A stretch of 29,601 nt of DNA from the IMG/VR virus record IMGVR_UViG_3300024267_000019, positions 1 through 29,601 of that record. One strand, 5' to 3'. Shown in pieces: positions 3,408 to 9,123 of this stretch; the stretch's first letter is position 1; every line of letters begins with the position of its first letter. Both the position numbers and the translations under genes were made by a program. Below the pieces are notes generated by a model that was not told where the DNA came from, searched no databases, and saw only the letters and a program-made list of their open reading frames with translations. Source of the stretch: a virus.

Positions 3408-3671
3408 ATGAATATATTAAAAAAAGCAAACGAAATAATTAACAAAAGATCTGAAGAAAAAGAAAGAATGTATGGTCCTTTTGAAGAAGGTATGGAAAGA
3501 ACAGCTATGATAGCAAAAGGATGTACTGGTAAAGACATAACAGCTAGAGATGTATATTTAATACTTGTAGCTTTAAAGTTGTCAAGACAATCTTATTCAC
3601 ACAAAGAAGATAATTTACTTGATGCGGTAGCTTATCTAGGTTCATTAAATGATTATTTAAATAAACAATAA
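3408..3671 (+). CDS. DUF6378-like phage protein
   Basis: The 87-residue helical protein resembles DUF6378, a small phage family with the pattern YG-x-F near the N-terminus, an IT-x-(R/E)DV helix, and a C-terminal K-x-DNLLDAVAYLGSL helix. Those elements appear here at about residues 22-25, 43-49 and 68-79. The paired acidic residues in the last helix recall the all-alpha NTP pyrophosphatase (MazG) architecture, but the function of the family is unknown. It is the first gene after the TTAACA pair and an A-rich leader, and precedes the modification cluster by 11 bases, so it may be co-transcribed with it. Confidence 0.65.
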   Translation: MNILKKANEIINKRSEEKERMYGPFEEGMERTAMIAKGCTGKDITARDVYLILVALKLSRQSYSHKEDNLLDAVAYLGSLNDYLNKQ

Positions 3672-3682
3672 AAACAATAAAG

Positions 3683-4594
3683 ATGAAAAAAATAGGTATA
3701 GTAGGGATTGTAAGTAATCCAGCTAAAAGATTAAATAGCCATAATGGTGGTTATACATTAGTACTTAAAAATATTTTTAAAGCAGATATTTTAACTCATA
3801 AAGATGATTGGGATCAATACGAAGAATTAATTGTATCAGAAGGAGTAAATTATAGAGAAAATGTATTTAATTTCTTTGGAGGTGTTCAAGATGAAGTATT
3901 TATTAGACTTAAAAAATTAAATGATTTTAAAGGTAAAACTTTTTGTGTTAATATACCTATAGATTATAATATTATTATAAATAAAAGAAAAGAATTAAAA
4001 GGTCTTCATTGTAATAAAATACCTACAGTATTAAAAATAGATGATATTAATAATAAGTTAATATTAGGAGATAGCCATAGTATATCTGTTTATAAACAAG
4101 GTTACTCTATAAGTAGAAACGACGGTAAAACTTTAAATGGTTTTTTAAATATAGGTTTAAAAAATTATATACATGAAGGTGTTGATGATCTTATTTTTTA
4201 TGCTGGTAATATAGATATTAGATTTCATGTACATAGATTTAATGGTAGAAAAACCGTGGTTGATCTTATAAAAAGATTATTTGAGCAATTAATAGATTTA
4301 AATATTAATAAAATAACTTTAGTTTCTTTATTACCTATTGAAGATGAGTCTAGAAAATTACCTAAAACTGGTCTATATAAAAATAAAAAGTTTTACGGAT
4401 CTAAAGAAGATAGAACTTACTACGTTAAAGAGTTTAATAGTTTATTAAAAAGAGGTTGTAATCATTATGGTTATAATTTAATAGAATGGGATTTTGATTA
4501 TGATAAAGGTTTGAGTTTTGATGACATGGAATCAAGACAATCTGTTCATTTAAGACCAAGTAGTTATAAATATATAAATGATTTACAATGTTAG
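3683..4594 (+). CDS. Two-domain protein with SGNH/GDSL-like C-terminal region
   Basis: Of 303 residues, about 1-110 form an N-terminal alpha/beta domain of unknown type. Residues about 122-303 resemble an SGNH hydrolase: block I LILGDSHS with Asp130-Ser131 after a hydrophobic strand, a block III-like YAGNID at 173-178 (Gly175, Asn176), and a late SVHLRPSSYKY with His289 as the probable catalytic His. The Asp normally three residues before that His is absent, which makes catalysis uncertain. SGNH enzymes cleave esters and acyl or sugar groups. It starts the cluster 3683-8362 and overlaps the next gene by seven bases, so it is likely to act with the base-modification enzymes. The substrate cannot be guessed from sequence. 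Confidence 0.55.
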   Translation: MKKIGIVGIVSNPAKRLNSHNGGYTLVLKNIFKADILTHKDDWDQYEELIVSEGVNYRENVFNFFGGVQDEVFIRLKKLNDFKGKTFCVNIPIDYNIIINKRKELKGLHCNKIPTVLKIDDINNKLILGDSHSISVYKQGYSISRNDGKTLNGFLNIGLKNYIHEGVDDLIFYAGNIDIRFHVHRFNGRKTVVDLIKRLFEQLIDLNINKITLVSLLPIEDESRKLPKTGLYKNKKFYGSKEDRTYYVKEFNSLLKRGCNHYGYNLIEWDFDYDKGLSFDDMESRQSVHLRPSSYKYINDLQC

Positions 4595-5499
4595 AACAAT
4601 TTAAAGATTATTATAGCAAAGCTAAAAAAATGCAAGAATATAAATATGAACATGTTAAATGGAATGAAAACGATGTTAATGATGATTTAGTATGGAATAT
4701 ACCAATATACGATGTAGTTAATAGAAAATATGCGGCATTTAGTAGCTTGTTAGAAGCTGTTAAGAAAAAAGATAAAGACCCTAAAGGTAATGGTAAGTAT
4801 TTTTTAAATATAGAAGATAGATTAACTGATGAAAATTTTATAAAGTTATCTTATTTATTTAGATTATGTGGTTCTGGGATTAATTACAAACCTAAAAAAG
4901 ATAATGAGTCTCCTTTTAAAACACATGGTTTTGGTAATTTTTGGATAGTAAATGAATTATCAAGAGGATTTACATTTGCATCTGATTGGATTAGAGTAAT
5001 GCCTGATTCAAGATTTTGCGATGTTAAAGGTTACTTACTCCCTATGATAAAAGGTGGTTTACATTTATTTATTTATAATAAATCAGAACAGTTAATGAAT
5101 CATCTTATAGATTATCTCTACAAAGGAGATAAAAAAGGTATTAAAGATGTTGTTGATTATGGTAACGAATGGTTAATAAGTAAAGGTTTTAAAAGACAAA
5201 AATTTGTTTTGACTGCTTTTGCTATGGATATGGCTGAATATTTTCCTGAGTTAGTAGATCGAGATAGTACAGTTTATATTGGTTCTAATGCTAAAAAATG
5301 TTTAAAATTAATATTACCAAATAAAAAACATGACGATGCGTTAGAGATGTTGTGTGATATAACTGGTGGCTTTTCAAAACCTTATGATATGGAAGATGTT
5401 GCTTGCGACTTTATAAGGTATATAGAAAACTTTCAATCTAAAGAACATATAGAATTAAATAATGGAATAATATATAAAAATAATATAAAATGTTTATAA
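4588..5499 (+). CDS. Putative alpha-glutamyl/putrescinyl-thymine pyrophosphorylase-like protein
   Basis: A 303-residue, mainly helical protein. The region at about 88-135 has LFRLCGSGINYKP followed by THGFGNFWIVNEL and a SDWIRVM helix. This resembles the helical, DNA-glycosylase-like fold proteins called alpha-glutamyl/putrescinyl-thymine pyrophosphorylases (aGPT-PPlases). In phages with hypermodified thymine, those replace the pyrophosphate on a 5-hydroxymethyl-dU base in DNA by an amine or amino acid. I assign it from remembered motif shape and from its neighbours, so it is a moderate call; an uncharacterised glycosylase-fold protein is the alternative. It overlaps the genes on both sides, indicating tight translational coupling with the SGNH-like and PLP genes. 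No hydroxymethyl-dU DNA kinase, normally needed to prime the base, is seen in this window. Confidence 0.45.
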   Translation: MLEQFKDYYSKAKKMQEYKYEHVKWNENDVNDDLVWNIPIYDVVNRKYAAFSSLLEAVKKKDKDPKGNGKYFLNIEDRLTDENFIKLSYLFRLCGSGINYKPKKDNESPFKTHGFGNFWIVNELSRGFTFASDWIRVMPDSRFCDVKGYLLPMIKGGLHLFIYNKSEQLMNHLIDYLYKGDKKGIKDVVDYGNEWLISKGFKRQKFVLTAFAMDMAEYFPELVDRDSTVYIGSNAKKCLKLILPNKKHDDALEMLCDITGGFSKPYDMEDVACDFIRYIENFQSKEHIELNNGIIYKNNIKCL

Positions 5500-6395
5500 A
5501 TAAACAAACTAAAGTAGAGAATAATGATTTAAAAGGTAAGTCTCTTGATTATTATTTAAAAATAACAGAAGGTTTTAAGTCTTCTTTTAAACATTTTAAT
5601 GTTAAAAACATAAATGGATTTAATGTTATAGATGAATCTAAATCTTGTGAAGTAGGTTACAAAGCTAGATCAGGTGAATTTTTCATACAACATTTAGTTG
5701 ATCAAGGTGTTAAAGAATTAGTATACGTACAGCCAAGAAGAGGTTTCGCTGGTATATCTTTATCTTGGTTATGTAAAAAATATAACTTAGATCTTACTTT
5801 AGTTATGCCATCATCTAAAGAAGTTAGTGATCATCAAGCTTTATGTATTGAGTTAGGAGCTAAGCCTTTATTTGCTAGAATAGCTGCTATGCCAAATGCT
5901 AATTCTTTAGCTAAAAAATATTCTATAGTAACTGGAGCTTACTTTATTCCTTTAGGTTTAAACCATCCTTTAGTAATAGCTGGAGGTGTAAGAAGTATTT
6001 ATGATTATTTTAAAGATAAACAAAAGCCTGAAACAATTTGGAGTGTTATATCTACAGGTGTTTTAAGTAGAACAATGCAAATTGCTTTACCTGGTACTAA
6101 TTTTAAAGCTGTTGCTGTTGCTAGAAATATACAACAAGGTGAATTAGGTATTGCTGATTTTTACTCGTACCATAAAGTTTTTAATAGTAAATCCGATTTA
6201 ATACCTACAGAATTTAATTGTGAAGATTCTTATGATTCTAAAGGTTGGGATTATATTAATAGATATGGTAAAAAAGGTGATTGGTTTTTTAGTGTAGCTG
6301 GTAATGCTAAGCTTCCTAATATAGATAAAAGTAGTATAGACTCTAAAAGAGAATGGAATGATTTAAAAGACTTTAATAAGTATGGAATATATTAA
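5490..6395 (+). CDS. PLP-dependent fold-type II (TrpB/cysteine-synthase-like) enzyme
   Basis: The product (301 aa) has the sequence order of fold-type II pyridoxal-phosphate enzymes such as cysteine synthase, threonine synthase and ACC deaminase. VGYKARSGEFF at 55-65 supplies the probable Schiff-base Lys58. A strand-turn-helix YVQPRRGFAGISLSWLCKK stands in for the usual SGN-x-G carboxylate loop. LTLVMPSSKE follows with the typical VMP, then ELGAKPLFA. WSVISTGVLSRTM near 185-197 matches the phosphate-binding glycine/serine loop position. Such enzymes do beta-substitution, deamination or elimination on amino acids. In phage DNA hypermodification, PLP enzymes tailor an amino-acid group attached to the base. 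It overlaps the genes on both sides of it in the cluster. Confidence 0.72.
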   Translation: MFINKQTKVENNDLKGKSLDYYLKITEGFKSSFKHFNVKNINGFNVIDESKSCEVGYKARSGEFFIQHLVDQGVKELVYVQPRRGFAGISLSWLCKKYNLDLTLVMPSSKEVSDHQALCIELGAKPLFARIAAMPNANSLAKKYSIVTGAYFIPLGLNHPLVIAGGVRSIYDYFKDKQKPETIWSVISTGVLSRTMQIALPGTNFKAVAVARNIQQGELGIADFYSYHKVFNSKSDLIPTEFNCEDSYDSKGWDYINRYGKKGDWFFSVAGNAKLPNIDKSSIDSKREWNDLKDFNKYGIY

Positions 6396-6408
6396 AAACA
6401 AAAACAAT

Positions 6409-6969
6409 ATGAAATACGATTTATTTAGTAGCTTCTTTTACGATAATCAACATTTGTTTAAGAAACATAAGAATGTTAAAACAGGTACTGCTCACGCAGA
6501 TAATATAGCTAAACTTAAAGAATTCTATGATATTAGATTTCCTTATGGACATTGCTTTCCTATAAGTCAATTTATGTTTTATTATTTAGGAGGTTATGGC
6601 TCTGATTACGAATTAAGGTGTATACATAAAATACCTATAAATATAAAAGGTTTTAAATTTTTTACTTCTCATTGGTTTGTACAAAATAAATTAACAAGTG
6701 AGATCATAGATTTATCTAAAGAACAATTTGATAAAGTAATAAATATTGATAATTACTATAAGTTTAGCCGTAAAGCTAATTTTGGTTTCCCTTATTTTTT
6801 TAGAAACGGAGGTAAAAGATATAAAAACACAGTACCAAGTAAACAAGTTATTAATTTATATAAAGAGTTTAGAGAAATTAATATATATTTGTTAAAAGAT
6901 AATAGTAAAATAGATATAAAATCTGAAACATTAGAGTTTTATTTAAAAGAATACGAGAATGGAATTTAA
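6409..6969 (+). CDS. YunG-like Cys-His-Asp protein
   Basis: The 186-residue product has the three-part pattern of YunG-like proteins, a papain/transglutaminase-type arrangement. PYGHCFPISQF gives Cys49, TSHWFVQN gives His88, and EIIDLSKEQF gives Asp101. Cys at a helix start, His in a strand and Asp followed by L-[ST]-x-EQF are what I know from the family, whose function is unknown. An amide-forming or amide-cleaving activity would fit a pathway that attaches amino compounds to DNA. I chose the ATG at 6409 because it follows an A-rich leader (AAAAACAAAAACAAT). An in-frame ATG at 6382 would overlap the PLP gene and add nine residues. It overlaps the next gene by 11 bases. Confidence 0.6.
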   Translation: MKYDLFSSFFYDNQHLFKKHKNVKTGTAHADNIAKLKEFYDIRFPYGHCFPISQFMFYYLGGYGSDYELRCIHKIPINIKGFKFFTSHWFVQNKLTSEIIDLSKEQFDKVINIDNYYKFSRKANFGFPYFFRNGGKRYKNTVPSKQVINLYKEFREINIYLLKDNSKIDIKSETLEFYLKEYENGI

Positions 6970-7597
6970 AAATGCAAATGAAGCTTACGAGTACTTATAC
7001 GAAAAAATTATACTTGATGGTATTGATTTTGATAATACTAAAGCATTGTTTAATGTCGGCTTTATTTTAAGAGACCCATTAGATAATAATATAACAAACA
7101 AAGAACGCAAGTTTAATTTAACTTATGCAGAAGCTGAATGGAAGTGGTACTTATCCGGTGACCCTAGTGTTGATAAGCTAGCTGAACTATATGGTAAAGT
7201 ACCACCAATATGGGAACGTATGGCTGATGAATATGGTCAGGTTAATTCTAATTACGGTTATCAATGGCAAAGAAATAACCAGCTAGGTTATGTTGTTGAT
7301 AAACTGAGAAATAATCCAGATACGAGACACGCTGCTATAAGTATATATGATGCAAAAGAACACGGTAGATATAGCAAAGATACTCCTTGTACTTATGCTA
7401 TTCAATTTACAGTTATAGATAATAAGTTAAATATGTCTGTTTATATGCGATCTAATGATCTATGGTATGGTTTCTGTATAGATCAATATTGTTTTTCATC
7501 TTTACAAAGTTTAGTATCATCTATGACTGGTTACAAGGTTGGTACTTATTACCACCACGCGCATAATTTACATTTGTATAACGATAAAATTAAATAA
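6959..7597 (+). CDS. Thymidylate synthase / pyrimidine-nucleotide hydroxymethylase homologue
   Basis: A 212-residue member of the thymidylate synthase fold, shorter than bacterial ThyA. NSNYGYQWQ near residues 96-104 matches the family's YG-x-xW block. DTPCT at 141-145 places the catalytic Cys144. MRSNDLWYG at 163-171 matches the R-S-x-D-x-x-L-G phosphate/base segment, and HNLHLYND near 202-209 gives the His/Tyr pair that holds the nucleotide sugar. Four residues after Gly171, where dUMP-specific enzymes have Asn, this protein has Asp175. In T4 dCMP hydroxymethylase that Asp selects cytosine. It could therefore make a 5-hydroxymethylpyrimidine nucleotide for incorporation into phage DNA, possibly hm-dCMP. 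Plain dTMP synthesis cannot be excluded. Confidence 0.8.
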   Translation: MEFKNANEAYEYLYEKIILDGIDFDNTKALFNVGFILRDPLDNNITNKERKFNLTYAEAEWKWYLSGDPSVDKLAELYGKVPPIWERMADEYGQVNSNYGYQWQRNNQLGYVVDKLRNNPDTRHAAISIYDAKEHGRYSKDTPCTYAIQFTVIDNKLNMSVYMRSNDLWYGFCIDQYCFSSLQSLVSSMTGYKVGTYYHHAHNLHLYNDKIK

Positions 7598-7603
7598 AGA
7601 AAA

Positions 7604-8362
7604 ATGTATTACGTATACTATATTAAAGGGATAAAAGTAGGATGTACTAAAGATATTAAAAAAAGAGTTGAAAAAGAGCAAGGCTATAAAGATTATTCTA
7701 TTTTATTTAAAAGTAAAGATATAAAAAAAGCTTCTAATGCTGAAAGATATTATCAAGAATTATTAAATTATAAAGTAGATACAAACACATACGAACAATT
7801 AACAAGCTTTAAAAATAAAAAAATGATTAAAAAAACAAACCACACTGTAACATTTAAAGTAGAAAAAAATAGTATTAATAAAGAATTTTTATTAAGCTTA
7901 GGTGTTATAAATGATTTAAATGGTAAAGATATAATAATATGTGAAGATTTAGCTGATTGGATTTTAAAAAATTTAAAAAAATCTCAATTTAACAATGAAA
8001 TGTTTATATACAATCAATCATTAATAAACGCTTATGATTTTTTAATAGAAAATAATATACTAGAAGATTCAAATATATTTGATTTAATTAGAGAATGGGC
8101 AGAAGATAAAGGTATATATAAATCAGGAGATGCTAGAACTCAATATGTAAAACTTATGGAAGAAGCAGGTGAATTAGCTCAAGCTATATTGAAAAATGAT
8201 GAGCCTGAGGTTATAGATGCTATTGGGGATATGGTTGTTGTATTAACTAACTTAGCAAAGTTAAGAGGGCATAACATAGAGGATTGTATTAAGTCAGCTT
8301 ATGATGTAATTAAATCAAGACAAGGTAAAATGATTAACGGAACATTTGTAAAAAACAACTAA
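7604..8362 (+). CDS. GIY-YIG-like / MazG nucleotide pyrophosphohydrolase fusion
   Basis: A 252-residue two-domain protein. The first 65 residues begin YYVYYIKGIKVGCTKDIKKRV, like the start of a GIY-YIG domain (YVY followed by KVGCT and a basic helix), with an AERYYQELL helix near residues 47-55. A middle region (about 75-155) is not recognised. Residues about 158-245 are a MazG-type NTP pyrophosphohydrolase: LMEEAGELAQAI gives Glu186, Glu187 and Glu190, and EVIDAIGDMVVVLTNLA gives Glu202, Asp205 and Asp209, the EExxE...ExxD metal-binding set. MazG enzymes hydrolyse (d)NTPs. Here that could remove an unmodified nucleotide from the pool in support of base modification. It stops on the A that begins the next ATG. 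The fusion itself is unusual. Confidence 0.78.
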   Translation: MYYVYYIKGIKVGCTKDIKKRVEKEQGYKDYSILFKSKDIKKASNAERYYQELLNYKVDTNTYEQLTSFKNKKMIKKTNHTVTFKVEKNSINKEFLLSLGVINDLNGKDIIICEDLADWILKNLKKSQFNNEMFIYNQSLINAYDFLIENNILEDSNIFDLIREWAEDKGIYKSGDARTQYVKLMEEAGELAQAILKNDEPEVIDAIGDMVVVLTNLAKLRGHNIEDCIKSAYDVIKSRQGKMINGTFVKNN

Positions 8363-9123
8363 TGGAAGAAATAAAACTACTTAATGATGAGATATTTAAA
8401 AAAGAAGATATACTAAAAAAAATGATGGATGATGATTTTTACTATGGTTATCTTGGTAAAAACGCTTTATCTAGTTCTTCTTGTAAAAGTTTAATAGAAG
8501 GTCCTGAATCTTACGTTGAAATGCTTAATAAAGATGATAACGGAAAAGAAGGTCAAGCATTAAGAGATGGTAGATTGATACATTTACTTTCTTTAGAACC
8601 ACATAGAATAGACGAATTAACTATAATTGATTCAACAAAAGGCAGTAAGTCTTATAAGTTAGCTATTCAAGAACAAATACCACAAACAGTTTATACTAGG
8701 TCTGAGTTAAATAGATGTAAAAGTATTGCTGATTCTGTTTTAGAAAATGATGAGTTTAGAGAGATTGTTAGATTTGCTCACTTTGAAAAACCTGAAATTG
8801 GATATTATAATAATTTACCTTTTAGAGGTAAAGCAGATATATGTTTACCTGGAATAGTTATAGATTTAAAAACAACAAGTGATATTAGTAGATTTGATGA
8901 ATCAGCTTTACATTGGAATTATGATTTACAAGCAGCACTGTATTTAGAACTGTTTAATGCTTTTGAATTTAAATATGTTGTTATTGACAAAAAAACACAA
9001 GAAGTTAAGTTTTTTGAATTTACTAATGATTTTATACAAAGTGGATATGAAAAATTAAATGTAGCTACTGAAAATTATAAAACGTATTTAGAAAATAAAG
9101 AATTCTACGATTTAGGTTTATGA
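8362..9123 (+). CDS. RecE/exonuclease VIII-like PD-(D/E)XK nuclease
   Basis: A 253-residue nuclease of the RecE / DUF3799 (PDDEXK) type that resects double-stranded DNA ends to expose single strands. Diagnostic parts are GRLIHLLSLEP near residues 70-80, FRGKADICL with Asp159, VIDLKTT with Asp168 and Lys170 (the D...DxK core), and YDLQAALYLEL with the downstream Gln190/Tyr194 motif. It overlaps the MazG fusion by one base and the next small gene by four. In phages this nuclease works with a single-strand annealing protein. Here the likely partner is the ERF protein at 471, separated from it by the modification cluster. Confidence 0.83.
   Translation: MEEIKLLNDEIFKKEDILKKMMDDDFYYGYLGKNALSSSSCKSLIEGPESYVEMLNKDDNGKEGQALRDGRLIHLLSLEPHRIDELTIIDSTKGSKSYKLAIQEQIPQTVYTRSELNRCKSIADSVLENDEFREIVRFAHFEKPEIGYYNNLPFRGKADICLPGIVIDLKTTSDISRFDESALHWNYDLQAALYLELFNAFEFKYVVIDKKTQEVKFFEFTNDFIQSGYEKLNVATENYKTYLENKEFYDLGL

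Follow-up and report, generated by a model that had tools for sequence, protein, structure and literature searches.

A conserved phage gene cluster that probably makes a hypermodified cytosine and encodes an apparent half-glucosyltransferase/SGNH hybrid protein

INTRODUCTION

Amino-acid-based hypermodification of DNA has been described for thymine, where it proceeds via a dedicated DNA kinase; Pseudomonas phage M6 makes 5-(2-aminoethyl)-dU. The window analyzed here, a stretch of 29,601 nucleotides of viral DNA (IMG/VR record IMGVR_UViG_3300024267_000019), contains six adjacent genes that an earlier note, made from the sequence alone, had grouped as a DNA base hypermodification cluster. Which base would these genes modify, and what would stand in for the kinase? 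We put at roughly 0.6 the probability that phage DNA receives a hypermodified cytosine from this cluster by the pathway proposed below.

RESULTS

Gene content of the cluster

A check of the window's open reading frames (ORFs) bore out the six-gene cluster, with all coordinates and the shared strand as previously given. Successive ORFs overlap by 7, 10, 14, and 11 bases, and a 6-base gap precedes the last. The six genes and their neighbors are as follows.

3408..3671, + strand: small, helical DUF6378 protein that opens the conserved unit (PF19905, E = 5.7e-13)
3683..4594, + strand: half-BGT/SGNH hybrid (AlphaFold, Foldseek, PF09198 in the family, hhalign)
4588..5499, + strand: all-helical protein with an aGPT-PPlase/amino acid:DNA transferase/HMUDK_hel fold, candidate base-flipping transferase (AlphaFold, Foldseek)
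5490..6395, + strand: PLP enzyme of fold type II, in the same family as phage M6 gp52 (phrog_7093, E = 2.3e-17)
6382..6969, + strand: YunG-like accessory protein, optional cluster member (PF24585, E = 0.23 only)
6959..7597, + strand: dCMP 5-hydroxymethylase-type TS homolog (PF00303, E = 1.9e-29)
7604..8362, + strand: C-terminal MazG/PRA-PH nucleotide pyrophosphohydrolase domain with a weak T5orf172/GIY-YIG-like N terminus (PF03819, E = 6e-7; PF01503, E = 5e-5; PF10544, E = 0.025)
8362..9123, + strand: DUF3799/exonuclease VIII-like recombination nuclease (PF12684, E = 5e-18; phrog_412, E = 7e-30)

These Pfam matches agree with the TS-family and MazG assignments made previously. The fold-type II assignment of the PLP enzyme was likewise upheld, by phrog_7093 and by a PF00291 match just under the cut-off (E = 4.8e-8), as was the SGNH-like hydrolase, on which AlphaFold and Foldseek agree. 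For the 6382 product, described earlier as a YunG-like Cys-His-Asp protein, the Cys, His, and Asp are retained in a distant homolog (locus L117, 30% identity), and the PF24585 match falls below threshold (12 bits versus a cut-off of 27). The DUF6378 gene, which the earlier note overlooked, belongs to the same conserved unit, and its product may possibly relate to the nucleotide pool. The DUF3799 nuclease gene adjoins the cluster in only a subset of relatives and probably lies outside the modification pathway.

Conservation of the neighborhood

We surveyed linkage in 89 distinct viral loci with a homolog of the 4588 gene, with denominators that differ for each neighbor. The PLP gene lies directly downstream of the 4588 homolog in 81/81 loci, and the SGNH gene flanks it in 74/74. 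A TS gene is nearby in 55 of 57 loci, a MazG gene lies within 5 kb downstream in 36 of 38, and a DUF6378 gene lies within 2.5 kb upstream in 56 of 58. In many loci of large, unrelated phages, DUF6378 likewise sits directly 5′ of the SGNH gene. Gene order and orientation are kept in dozens of contigs, mostly at 40 to 95% identity. A second lineage (loci L356, L357, L364, L365, and L369) has a rearranged order, with the 4588-like, PLP, and SGNH genes together, mostly accompanied by TS. Conservation of the neighborhood is far beyond chance. The gene set proposed earlier is thus strongly conserved in related phages, the YunG-like gene (near the 4588 homolog in just 7 of 57 loci) being optional. 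The cluster occurs in many small phages of aquatic origin, and cultured Aeromonas phages have a modified form of it.

The 3683 product appears to join half of T4 BGT to an SGNH domain

The most unusual feature of the cluster, overlooked previously, is the N-terminal part of the 3683 product. Over residues ~1 to 100 the protein is a homolog of T4 beta-glucosyltransferase (BGT), matching its N-terminal half, and residues ~125 to 303 form an SGNH-hydrolase-fold domain. The BGT-half homology rests on three methods: Pfam, hhalign, and Foldseek. PF09198 matched 10 of 37 hybrid family members over profile positions 1 to 100, below the curated cut-off (best E = 5.4e-5); these matches are to family members and the family profile, and the window protein itself gave none. 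Alignment of the hybrid family with BGT by hhalign gave a probability of 95 and an E value of 3.8e-8 (controls, <0.5). With the AlphaFold model (pLDDT, 92.6), Foldseek retrieved GDSL/SGNH enzymes at probability 1.00 and T4 BGT (1bgu) at E = 5e-3. When a profile of the BGT-like half was compared with PDB sequences, BGT was not retrieved.

The C-terminal UDP-glucose-binding domain of BGT is absent from the 3683 product, and the SGNH fold is in its place. The hybrid is widespread, with no fewer than 592 related stretches among viral contigs. Nearly all members have an SVH-type His motif, and 195/196 have a GDSH motif; the Asp of the SGNH DxxH motif, three residues before the His, is replaced by Q, G, K, or R in every member scored. 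The protein appears to be half of T4 BGT joined to an SGNH (GDSL-type) esterase-like domain. We know of no SGNH enzyme that acts on DNA bases, and this point and the replaced Asp both count against the pathway proposed below. The presence of a BGT-half relative at the N terminus points to 5-hydroxymethylcytosine (5-hmC) in DNA as the substrate.

In 67 loci of other phages, the hybrid pairs with HMUDK_hel proteins. Such SGNH partners match PF18723 (HMUDK_hel) with E values of 2e-15 and 8.5e-10, and in Aeromonas phage 44RR the hybrid is fused to an HMUDK_hel-like domain. The donor genes accompanying these pairs are quite different, encoding inositol-phosphate synthase, cytidylyltransferase, or cysteine-synthase-like proteins.

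The 4588 product and the PLP enzyme

The earlier note had described the 4588 product as pyrophosphorylase-like, a relationship found here by structure and not by sequence profiles. In Foldseek, the AlphaFold model (pLDDT, 89.8) matched both aGPT-PPlase clade 1 and proteins named "Amino acid:DNA transferase" (E = 7e-12 and 1e-4) at probability 1.00; among PDB entries, the matches were weak ones to AGOG DNA glycosylases only. The fold, as modeled, is that of the aGPT-PPlase/amino acid:DNA transferase (ADDT) group. Sequence searches gave no Pfam or PHROG family match. PF18724 (ADDT) matched neither the 4588 protein nor its relatives (M6 gp51, E = 1.4e-46), and PF18723 did not match the 4588 product. 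Profile comparisons based on several alignments of the 4588 family, one of them enlarged by a second lineage of 380 to 400 amino acids, gave no significant link with ADDT, with HMUDK_hel, or with the C-terminal domain of the 44RR protein. The reaction of the 4588 protein is uncertain because there is no sequence tie to either ADDT or HMUDK_hel. Bacterial and archaeal genomes contained no relatives, so the family looks virus-only, and tblastn found none in cultured phages.

The PLP enzyme had been considered a TrpB-like novelty for such systems. It belongs instead to the same PHROG as M6 gp52, which matches phrog_7093 at E = 2e-159 and in M6 adjoins the ADDT. K58 and R60 are invariant across the PLP enzymes, M6 gp52 included, and Lys58 is expected to be the Schiff-base lysine. 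A search against PDB sequences gave no match.

These observations bear on an alternative arrangement of the same hmC chemistry, in which the 4588 protein would be an HMUDK_hel-like base-flipping helper, the SGNH domain would install the final group, and the PLP enzyme would make only a free small-molecule donor. Such an arrangement would fit the pairing of SGNH with HMUDK_hel proteins amid quite different donor genes, the fusion in 44RR, and the position of the 4588 gene, which sits beside SGNH where HMUDK_hel does elsewhere. However, the closest named structural matches of the 4588 protein are amino acid:DNA transferases rather than HMUDK_hel, and the PLP enzyme is of the gp52 family, whose M6 member adjoins an ADDT. 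We regard this arrangement as unlikely.

In a further reading, which we consider very improbable, the genes would serve the modification or salvage of nucleotides or of some other small molecule and leave DNA unaltered. MazG and the TS homolog do handle nucleotides, and SGNH and YunG-like families elsewhere act on small molecules or proteins, but the BGT-half domain and the DNA-glycosylase-type fold are DNA-facing, and the HMUDK_hel pairing in other phages is typical of DNA modification systems.

The TS homolog has a cytosine-type specificity residue

The catalytic Cys144 of the TS homolog is invariant in an alignment with the T4, 44RR, and M6 enzymes. Thr occupies the position of E. coli H147, and Asp175 that of E. 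coli TS Asn177. All 108 of the TS homologs that could be scored have Asp at this position, as do T4 and 44RR gp42 in the alignment; the residue in the M6 dUMP enzyme is Asn. The best PDB matches were a single thymidylate synthase (E = 1.7e-21), followed by the CMP hydroxymethylase MilA (E = 1e-20) and T4 dCMP hydroxymethylase (E = 1e-17). In metaviromes, Asp177 in TS homologs tracks modified cytosine (PMC8670742). Since all 108 homologs have the Asp of T4 dCMP hydroxymethylase, the modified base is, judging by this residue, very probably 5-hydroxymethylcytosine. The earlier proposal of thymine hypermodification by known M6/ViI logic fits the enzyme classes (TS homolog, aGPT-PPlase fold, PLP), but we reject it as barely plausible given the cytosine-type Asp in place of Asn, the lack of Pfam matches to an HMUDK kinase or an ADDT in the SGNH-bearing records searched, and the BGT-half domain, which points to hmC.

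No known DNA kinase was found with the cluster

The earlier note had found neither a DNA kinase nor a DNA polymerase in the window, and neither turned up as a gene family among the window's relatives, including a contig of ~33.7 kb that is probably a complete genome because its ends overlap. The P-loop 5-hmdU DNA kinase family PF18748 was detected in 0 of 29 SGNH-bearing records, many of them fragmentary and that of 44RR complete (positive control, M6; E = 1.1e-19), and PF18724 in 0 of 25, complete 44RR included. A location of the missing kinase outside the window is thus unsupported for the known kinase family in these relatives. We propose that the hybrid takes over from the kinase in acting on the 5-hydroxymethyl group. 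A point against the proposed pathway is that no radical SAM enzyme occurs with the cluster.

DISCUSSION

The cluster shares with M6 a TS-family hydroxymethylase and helical proteins of the aGPT-PPlase superfamily, and the fold-type II PLP enzymes of both fall into one PHROG. M6, in contrast, acts on uracil, with Asn at the TS specificity site, and has a P-loop 5-hmdU DNA kinase with HMUDK_hel, a Pfam-recognizable ADDT, and a radical SAM enzyme; the window, in which that kinase is absent, encodes the cytosine-type TS homolog and the half-BGT/SGNH protein. T4, which glucosylates hmC by means of gp42 and BGT, resembles the window in its dCMP-type hydroxymethylase and in the N-terminal half of BGT, but the window hybrid has SGNH instead of the UDP-glucose-binding half, and the PLP and transferase-fold enzymes are additional. 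Phage 44RR encodes the same half-BGT/SGNH protein (ORF233c, 30% identity), and its genome also contains a MazG-like gene and that of the gp42 hydroxymethylase. Its SGNH is fused to the HMUDK_hel-like domain, whereas that of the window adjoins the 4588 gene, and its PLP candidate, in the part of the genome inspected, is SHMT-like. MetaGPA identified 5-hmC carbamoyltransferase systems in phage contigs with modified cytosine; these also have TS homologs with Asp177 and PRA-PH/MazG-type domains but use a carbamoyltransferase (PMC8670742), where the window has SGNH, 4588, and PLP enzymes.

The general type suggested earlier is retained here for cytosine: DNA base hypermodification that has no recognizable DNA kinase and is built on a hydroxymethylase of the TS family, a protein with the aGPT-PPlase/ADDT fold, and a PLP enzyme. 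Beyond the gene families, the folds, the cytosine-type residue, the linkage, and the absence of the known kinase family, which the analysis shows, we infer DNA as the substrate, the order of steps, the group transferred by SGNH, and the final product as follows. MazG, perhaps with the DUF6378 protein, would adjust the nucleotide pool, for example by converting dCTP to dCMP. The TS homolog would hydroxymethylate dCMP to 5-hm-dCMP, which host enzymes would bring into DNA; the probably complete small relative shows no DNA polymerase, so incorporation of 5-hmC would depend on the host. The BGT half of the hybrid would recognize 5-hmC in DNA, and the SGNH domain, with its Ser and His, would act on the oxygen of the 5-hydroxymethyl group, O-acylation being the simplest possibility; the hybrid would thereby fill the role that a P-loop DNA kinase has in the thymine pathways. 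The 4588 protein, with its base-flipping glycosylase-like fold, would then put an amino acid or similar nucleophile at the activated position, and the PLP enzyme would trim this amino acid once it is attached, e.g., through decarboxylation. To this kinase-free route in its particulars, with activation of 5-hmC (e.g., as an ester), a swap to an amino acid by a new aGPT-PPlase/ADDT superfamily branch, and PLP-dependent trimming to an undescribed base, we give somewhat less than an even chance.

The cluster argues for a cytosine branch parallel to thymine hypermodification, in which another enzyme would stand in for the kinase, and suggests a likely role for a large unannotated phage protein family (phrog_13881 and phrog_17781). 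SGNH-type enzymes acting on 5-hmC could serve as reagents. The prediction is testable, since phage 44RR is cultured and any modified base in its DNA could be measured directly. If true, it would add one more base and one more enzyme class to phage defenses against restriction.

Conservation of the gene cluster

The window, 29,601 bases long, spans an entire IMG/VR virus record and is probably a fragment; the cluster lies near its left end, with phage structural genes downstream. The six open reading frames (ORFs) described in the earlier note were recovered where it placed them; they share the + strand and have short overlaps, and a DUF6378 gene forms a seventh member of the unit.

3408-3671, DUF6378 gene
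3683-4594, + strand, half-BGT/SGNH hybrid (BGT, T4 beta-glucosyltransferase)
4588-5499, + strand, helical protein (4588 product)
5490-6395, + strand, PLP enzyme
6382-6969, + strand, YunG-like protein
6959-7597, + strand, TS homologue
7604-8362, + strand, MazG protein

Many related viral loci were matched when the 4588 and PLP products were used as queries. The co-occurrence survey proposed earlier was run by mapping the cluster genes on such loci, and the gene set is kept together. Linkage was counted for 89 distinct 4588 sequences, with testable loci as denominators. The SGNH gene is directly upstream of the 4588 gene in 74/74 loci and the PLP gene directly downstream in 81/81; TS lies within 3.5 kb (55/57 loci), MazG within 5 kb (36/38) and DUF6378 upstream (56/58). 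YunG is present in 7 of 57 loci of 4588 homologues. In another lineage, whose 4588-like protein is longer (380 to 400 aa), the 4588-like, PLP and SGNH genes stay together, mostly with TS, in differing orders (TS...4588-like...PLP-SGNH in contig stretch L356; SGNH-PLP-4588-like in L365). Their persistence together despite rearrangement is strong evidence that the cluster proteins function jointly.

The window MazG protein begins with a weak T5orf172/GIY-YIG-like segment (7604-7800; E, 0.025), which was not seen in the MazG of most relatives, often about 100 aa long.

The modified base

PDB matches of the TS homologue were one thymidylate synthase, followed by MilA CMP hydroxymethylase and T4 dCMP hydroxymethylase. 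In the window protein, T4 gp42 and gp42 of Aeromonas phage 44RR, the residue equivalent to E. coli Asn177 is Asp; in the uracil-type enzyme of Pseudomonas phage M6 it is Asn. In a pattern survey, all 108 TS homologues with a readable site had Asp (one truncated copy was unreadable). According to the MetaGPA study (PMC8670742), Asn177Asp changes the preference from dUMP to dCMP, and Asp here marks phage contigs with modified cytosine. Thymine, the base favored by the earlier note, is therefore unlikely, and hydroxymethylation of dCMP by the TS homologue is well supported.

The half-BGT/SGNH hybrid

The AlphaFold model of the 3683 product (pLDDT, 92.6) has an SGNH/GDSL fold in its C-terminal part (probability, 1.00). 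The fold search also returned T4 beta-glucosyltransferase (1bgu; E, 5e-3), and the N-terminal domain of the family was therefore examined alone. PF09198, the BGT profile, matched 10 members out of 37 in the family, over profile positions 1 to about 100 (best E, 5.4e-5; all hits inspected one by one fell under the curated cut-off). Since the window protein is not among the 10, its BGT assignment is based on the fold and on the alignment of the family. Profile-profile alignment of the family with BGT gave a probability of 95 (E, 3.8e-8), with seven unrelated control families all below 0.5; when this alignment was used in an ordinary profile search against PDB sequences, BGT was not found. A YD..I/V...N.FGG signature is common to the family and BGT, and the sugar-nucleotide half of BGT is absent. 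The SGNH half retains Ser (GDSH, 195/196) and His (SVH-type) and has lost the usual Asp of DxxH. The pairing of a domain related to the hmC-DNA-binding enzyme of T4 with an acyl-type Ser-His active site suggests that the hybrid acts on 5-hmC in DNA, at its hydroxymethyl group. A literature search, which reached few subscription journals and not two key thymidine papers, found no SGNH enzyme in DNA base modification; the domain combination would surprise a specialist.

The SGNH hybrid family occurs in at least 592 stretches of viral contigs. A helical protein of one family accompanies it in 67 of about 80 loci examined, counting 44RR, where a single 795-aa fusion protein contains both. Representatives of this helical family match PF18723 (HMUDK_hel; E, 2e-15 and 8.5e-10), as does, weakly, the C-terminal part of the 44RR fusion (E, 6.7e-4). 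In M6, the PF18723 protein (gp55) is the helical partner of a P-loop kinase (PF18748, gp54). This P-loop kinase was not found in any of 29 SGNH-bearing records, many of them fragments but including complete 44RR; the same search found the kinase in M6, the positive control. Given this gene content, the simplest reading is that the hybrid stands in for the kinase.

Large phages carry the hybrid gene too (L222:9947-14208, L230, L248, L258, L280, L284, L291, L294 and similar loci). Encoded with it are an HMUDK_hel protein, a small HAD-like protein and a homologue of myo-inositol-1-phosphate synthase, joined in some loci by a cysteine-synthase-like PLP enzyme, a cytidylyltransferase or a methyltransferase of the FkbM type. 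These loci apparently hold a further hmC hypermodification system that uses another donor. Besides the fusion (ORF233c, L125:6001-8388, with L128), 44RR encodes gp42 hydroxymethylase and a gp56 nucleotidase and has MazG-like and SHMT-like PLP genes; no beta-glucosyltransferase was found when its genome was searched with Pfam. Its DNA may carry an hmC derivative not yet described.

The 4588 product and the PLP enzyme

The AlphaFold model of the 4588 product is all-helical and confident (pLDDT, 89.8). Among viral models, Foldseek matched it to "amino acid:DNA transferase" proteins (E, 7e-12 with TM 0.81, and E, 1e-4) and to aGPT-PPlase clade 1 (probability, 1.00), a fold match that favors the previously proposed relationship to aGPT-PPlase. 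PDB matches were weak and only to AGOG-type DNA glycosylases, and no sequence-profile link to ADDT (PF18724) or HMUDK_hel (PF18723) was found. We treat the protein as a putative new branch of the aGPT-PPlase/ADDT fold and a candidate transferase or base-flipping helper.

At L292:9114-13165, L310:5134-8650 and L335:5190-8650, a longer 4588-like protein adjoins an HhH-GPD (EndoIII/MBD4-like) DNA glycosylase and a conserved protein of about 335 aa, family unassigned; at many such loci, SGNH and PLP genes were not seen nearby.

The window PLP enzyme matches phrog_7093 (E, 2e-17), of which M6 gp52 is a full-length member (E, 2e-159); gp52 directly follows gp51, a Pfam ADDT. The "TrpB-like" enzyme, previously taken as a departure from known systems, is thus a feature in common with M6. 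The expected PLP-binding lysine is invariant, also in M6. In the thymidine pathways of Lee et al. 2021, PLP enzymes reportedly decarboxylate amino acids once these have been attached to the base; by analogy, the window enzyme may do likewise.

Among cultured phages, the closest relatives of the PLP enzyme are in Erythrobacter phage ZS04 (L123:2326-4764) and Microcystis phage Mae-JY30 (L124:7929-8639). They carry a DNA methylase annotation and either form fusions with DNA methyltransferase and ParB-like segments or have ParB-like genes next to them. This setting suggests a second context in which the family acts on DNA.

Proposed pathway and a probably complete relative

In the proposed scheme, the TS homologue would hydroxymethylate dCMP; the SGNH hybrid, by homology, would act on 5-hmC in DNA and might O-acylate its hydroxymethyl group; the 4588 product would transfer an amino acid, which the PLP enzyme would trim. 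The scheme in this full wording is somewhat better than an even bet; for a narrower claim, hypermodification of cytosine in DNA by the cluster, the probability is about 0.85. In operation the cluster would be a cytosine counterpart of the M6 system, but it lacks three defining features of that system, a uracil-type TS, a P-loop kinase and an ADDT recognizable by sequence. Its overlap with T4 glucosylation consists of the initial step and one half of an enzyme.

The ends of a related contig, G005 (L208/L209), overlap by 164 bases at 99% identity, so that its roughly 33.7 kb are probably the complete genome. Among 48 of its ORFs, a set that excludes the tape measure ORF, there was no Pfam match to DNA polymerase, kinase or radical SAM families. 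G005 can serve to study the whole gene set of the phage group to which the window belongs.
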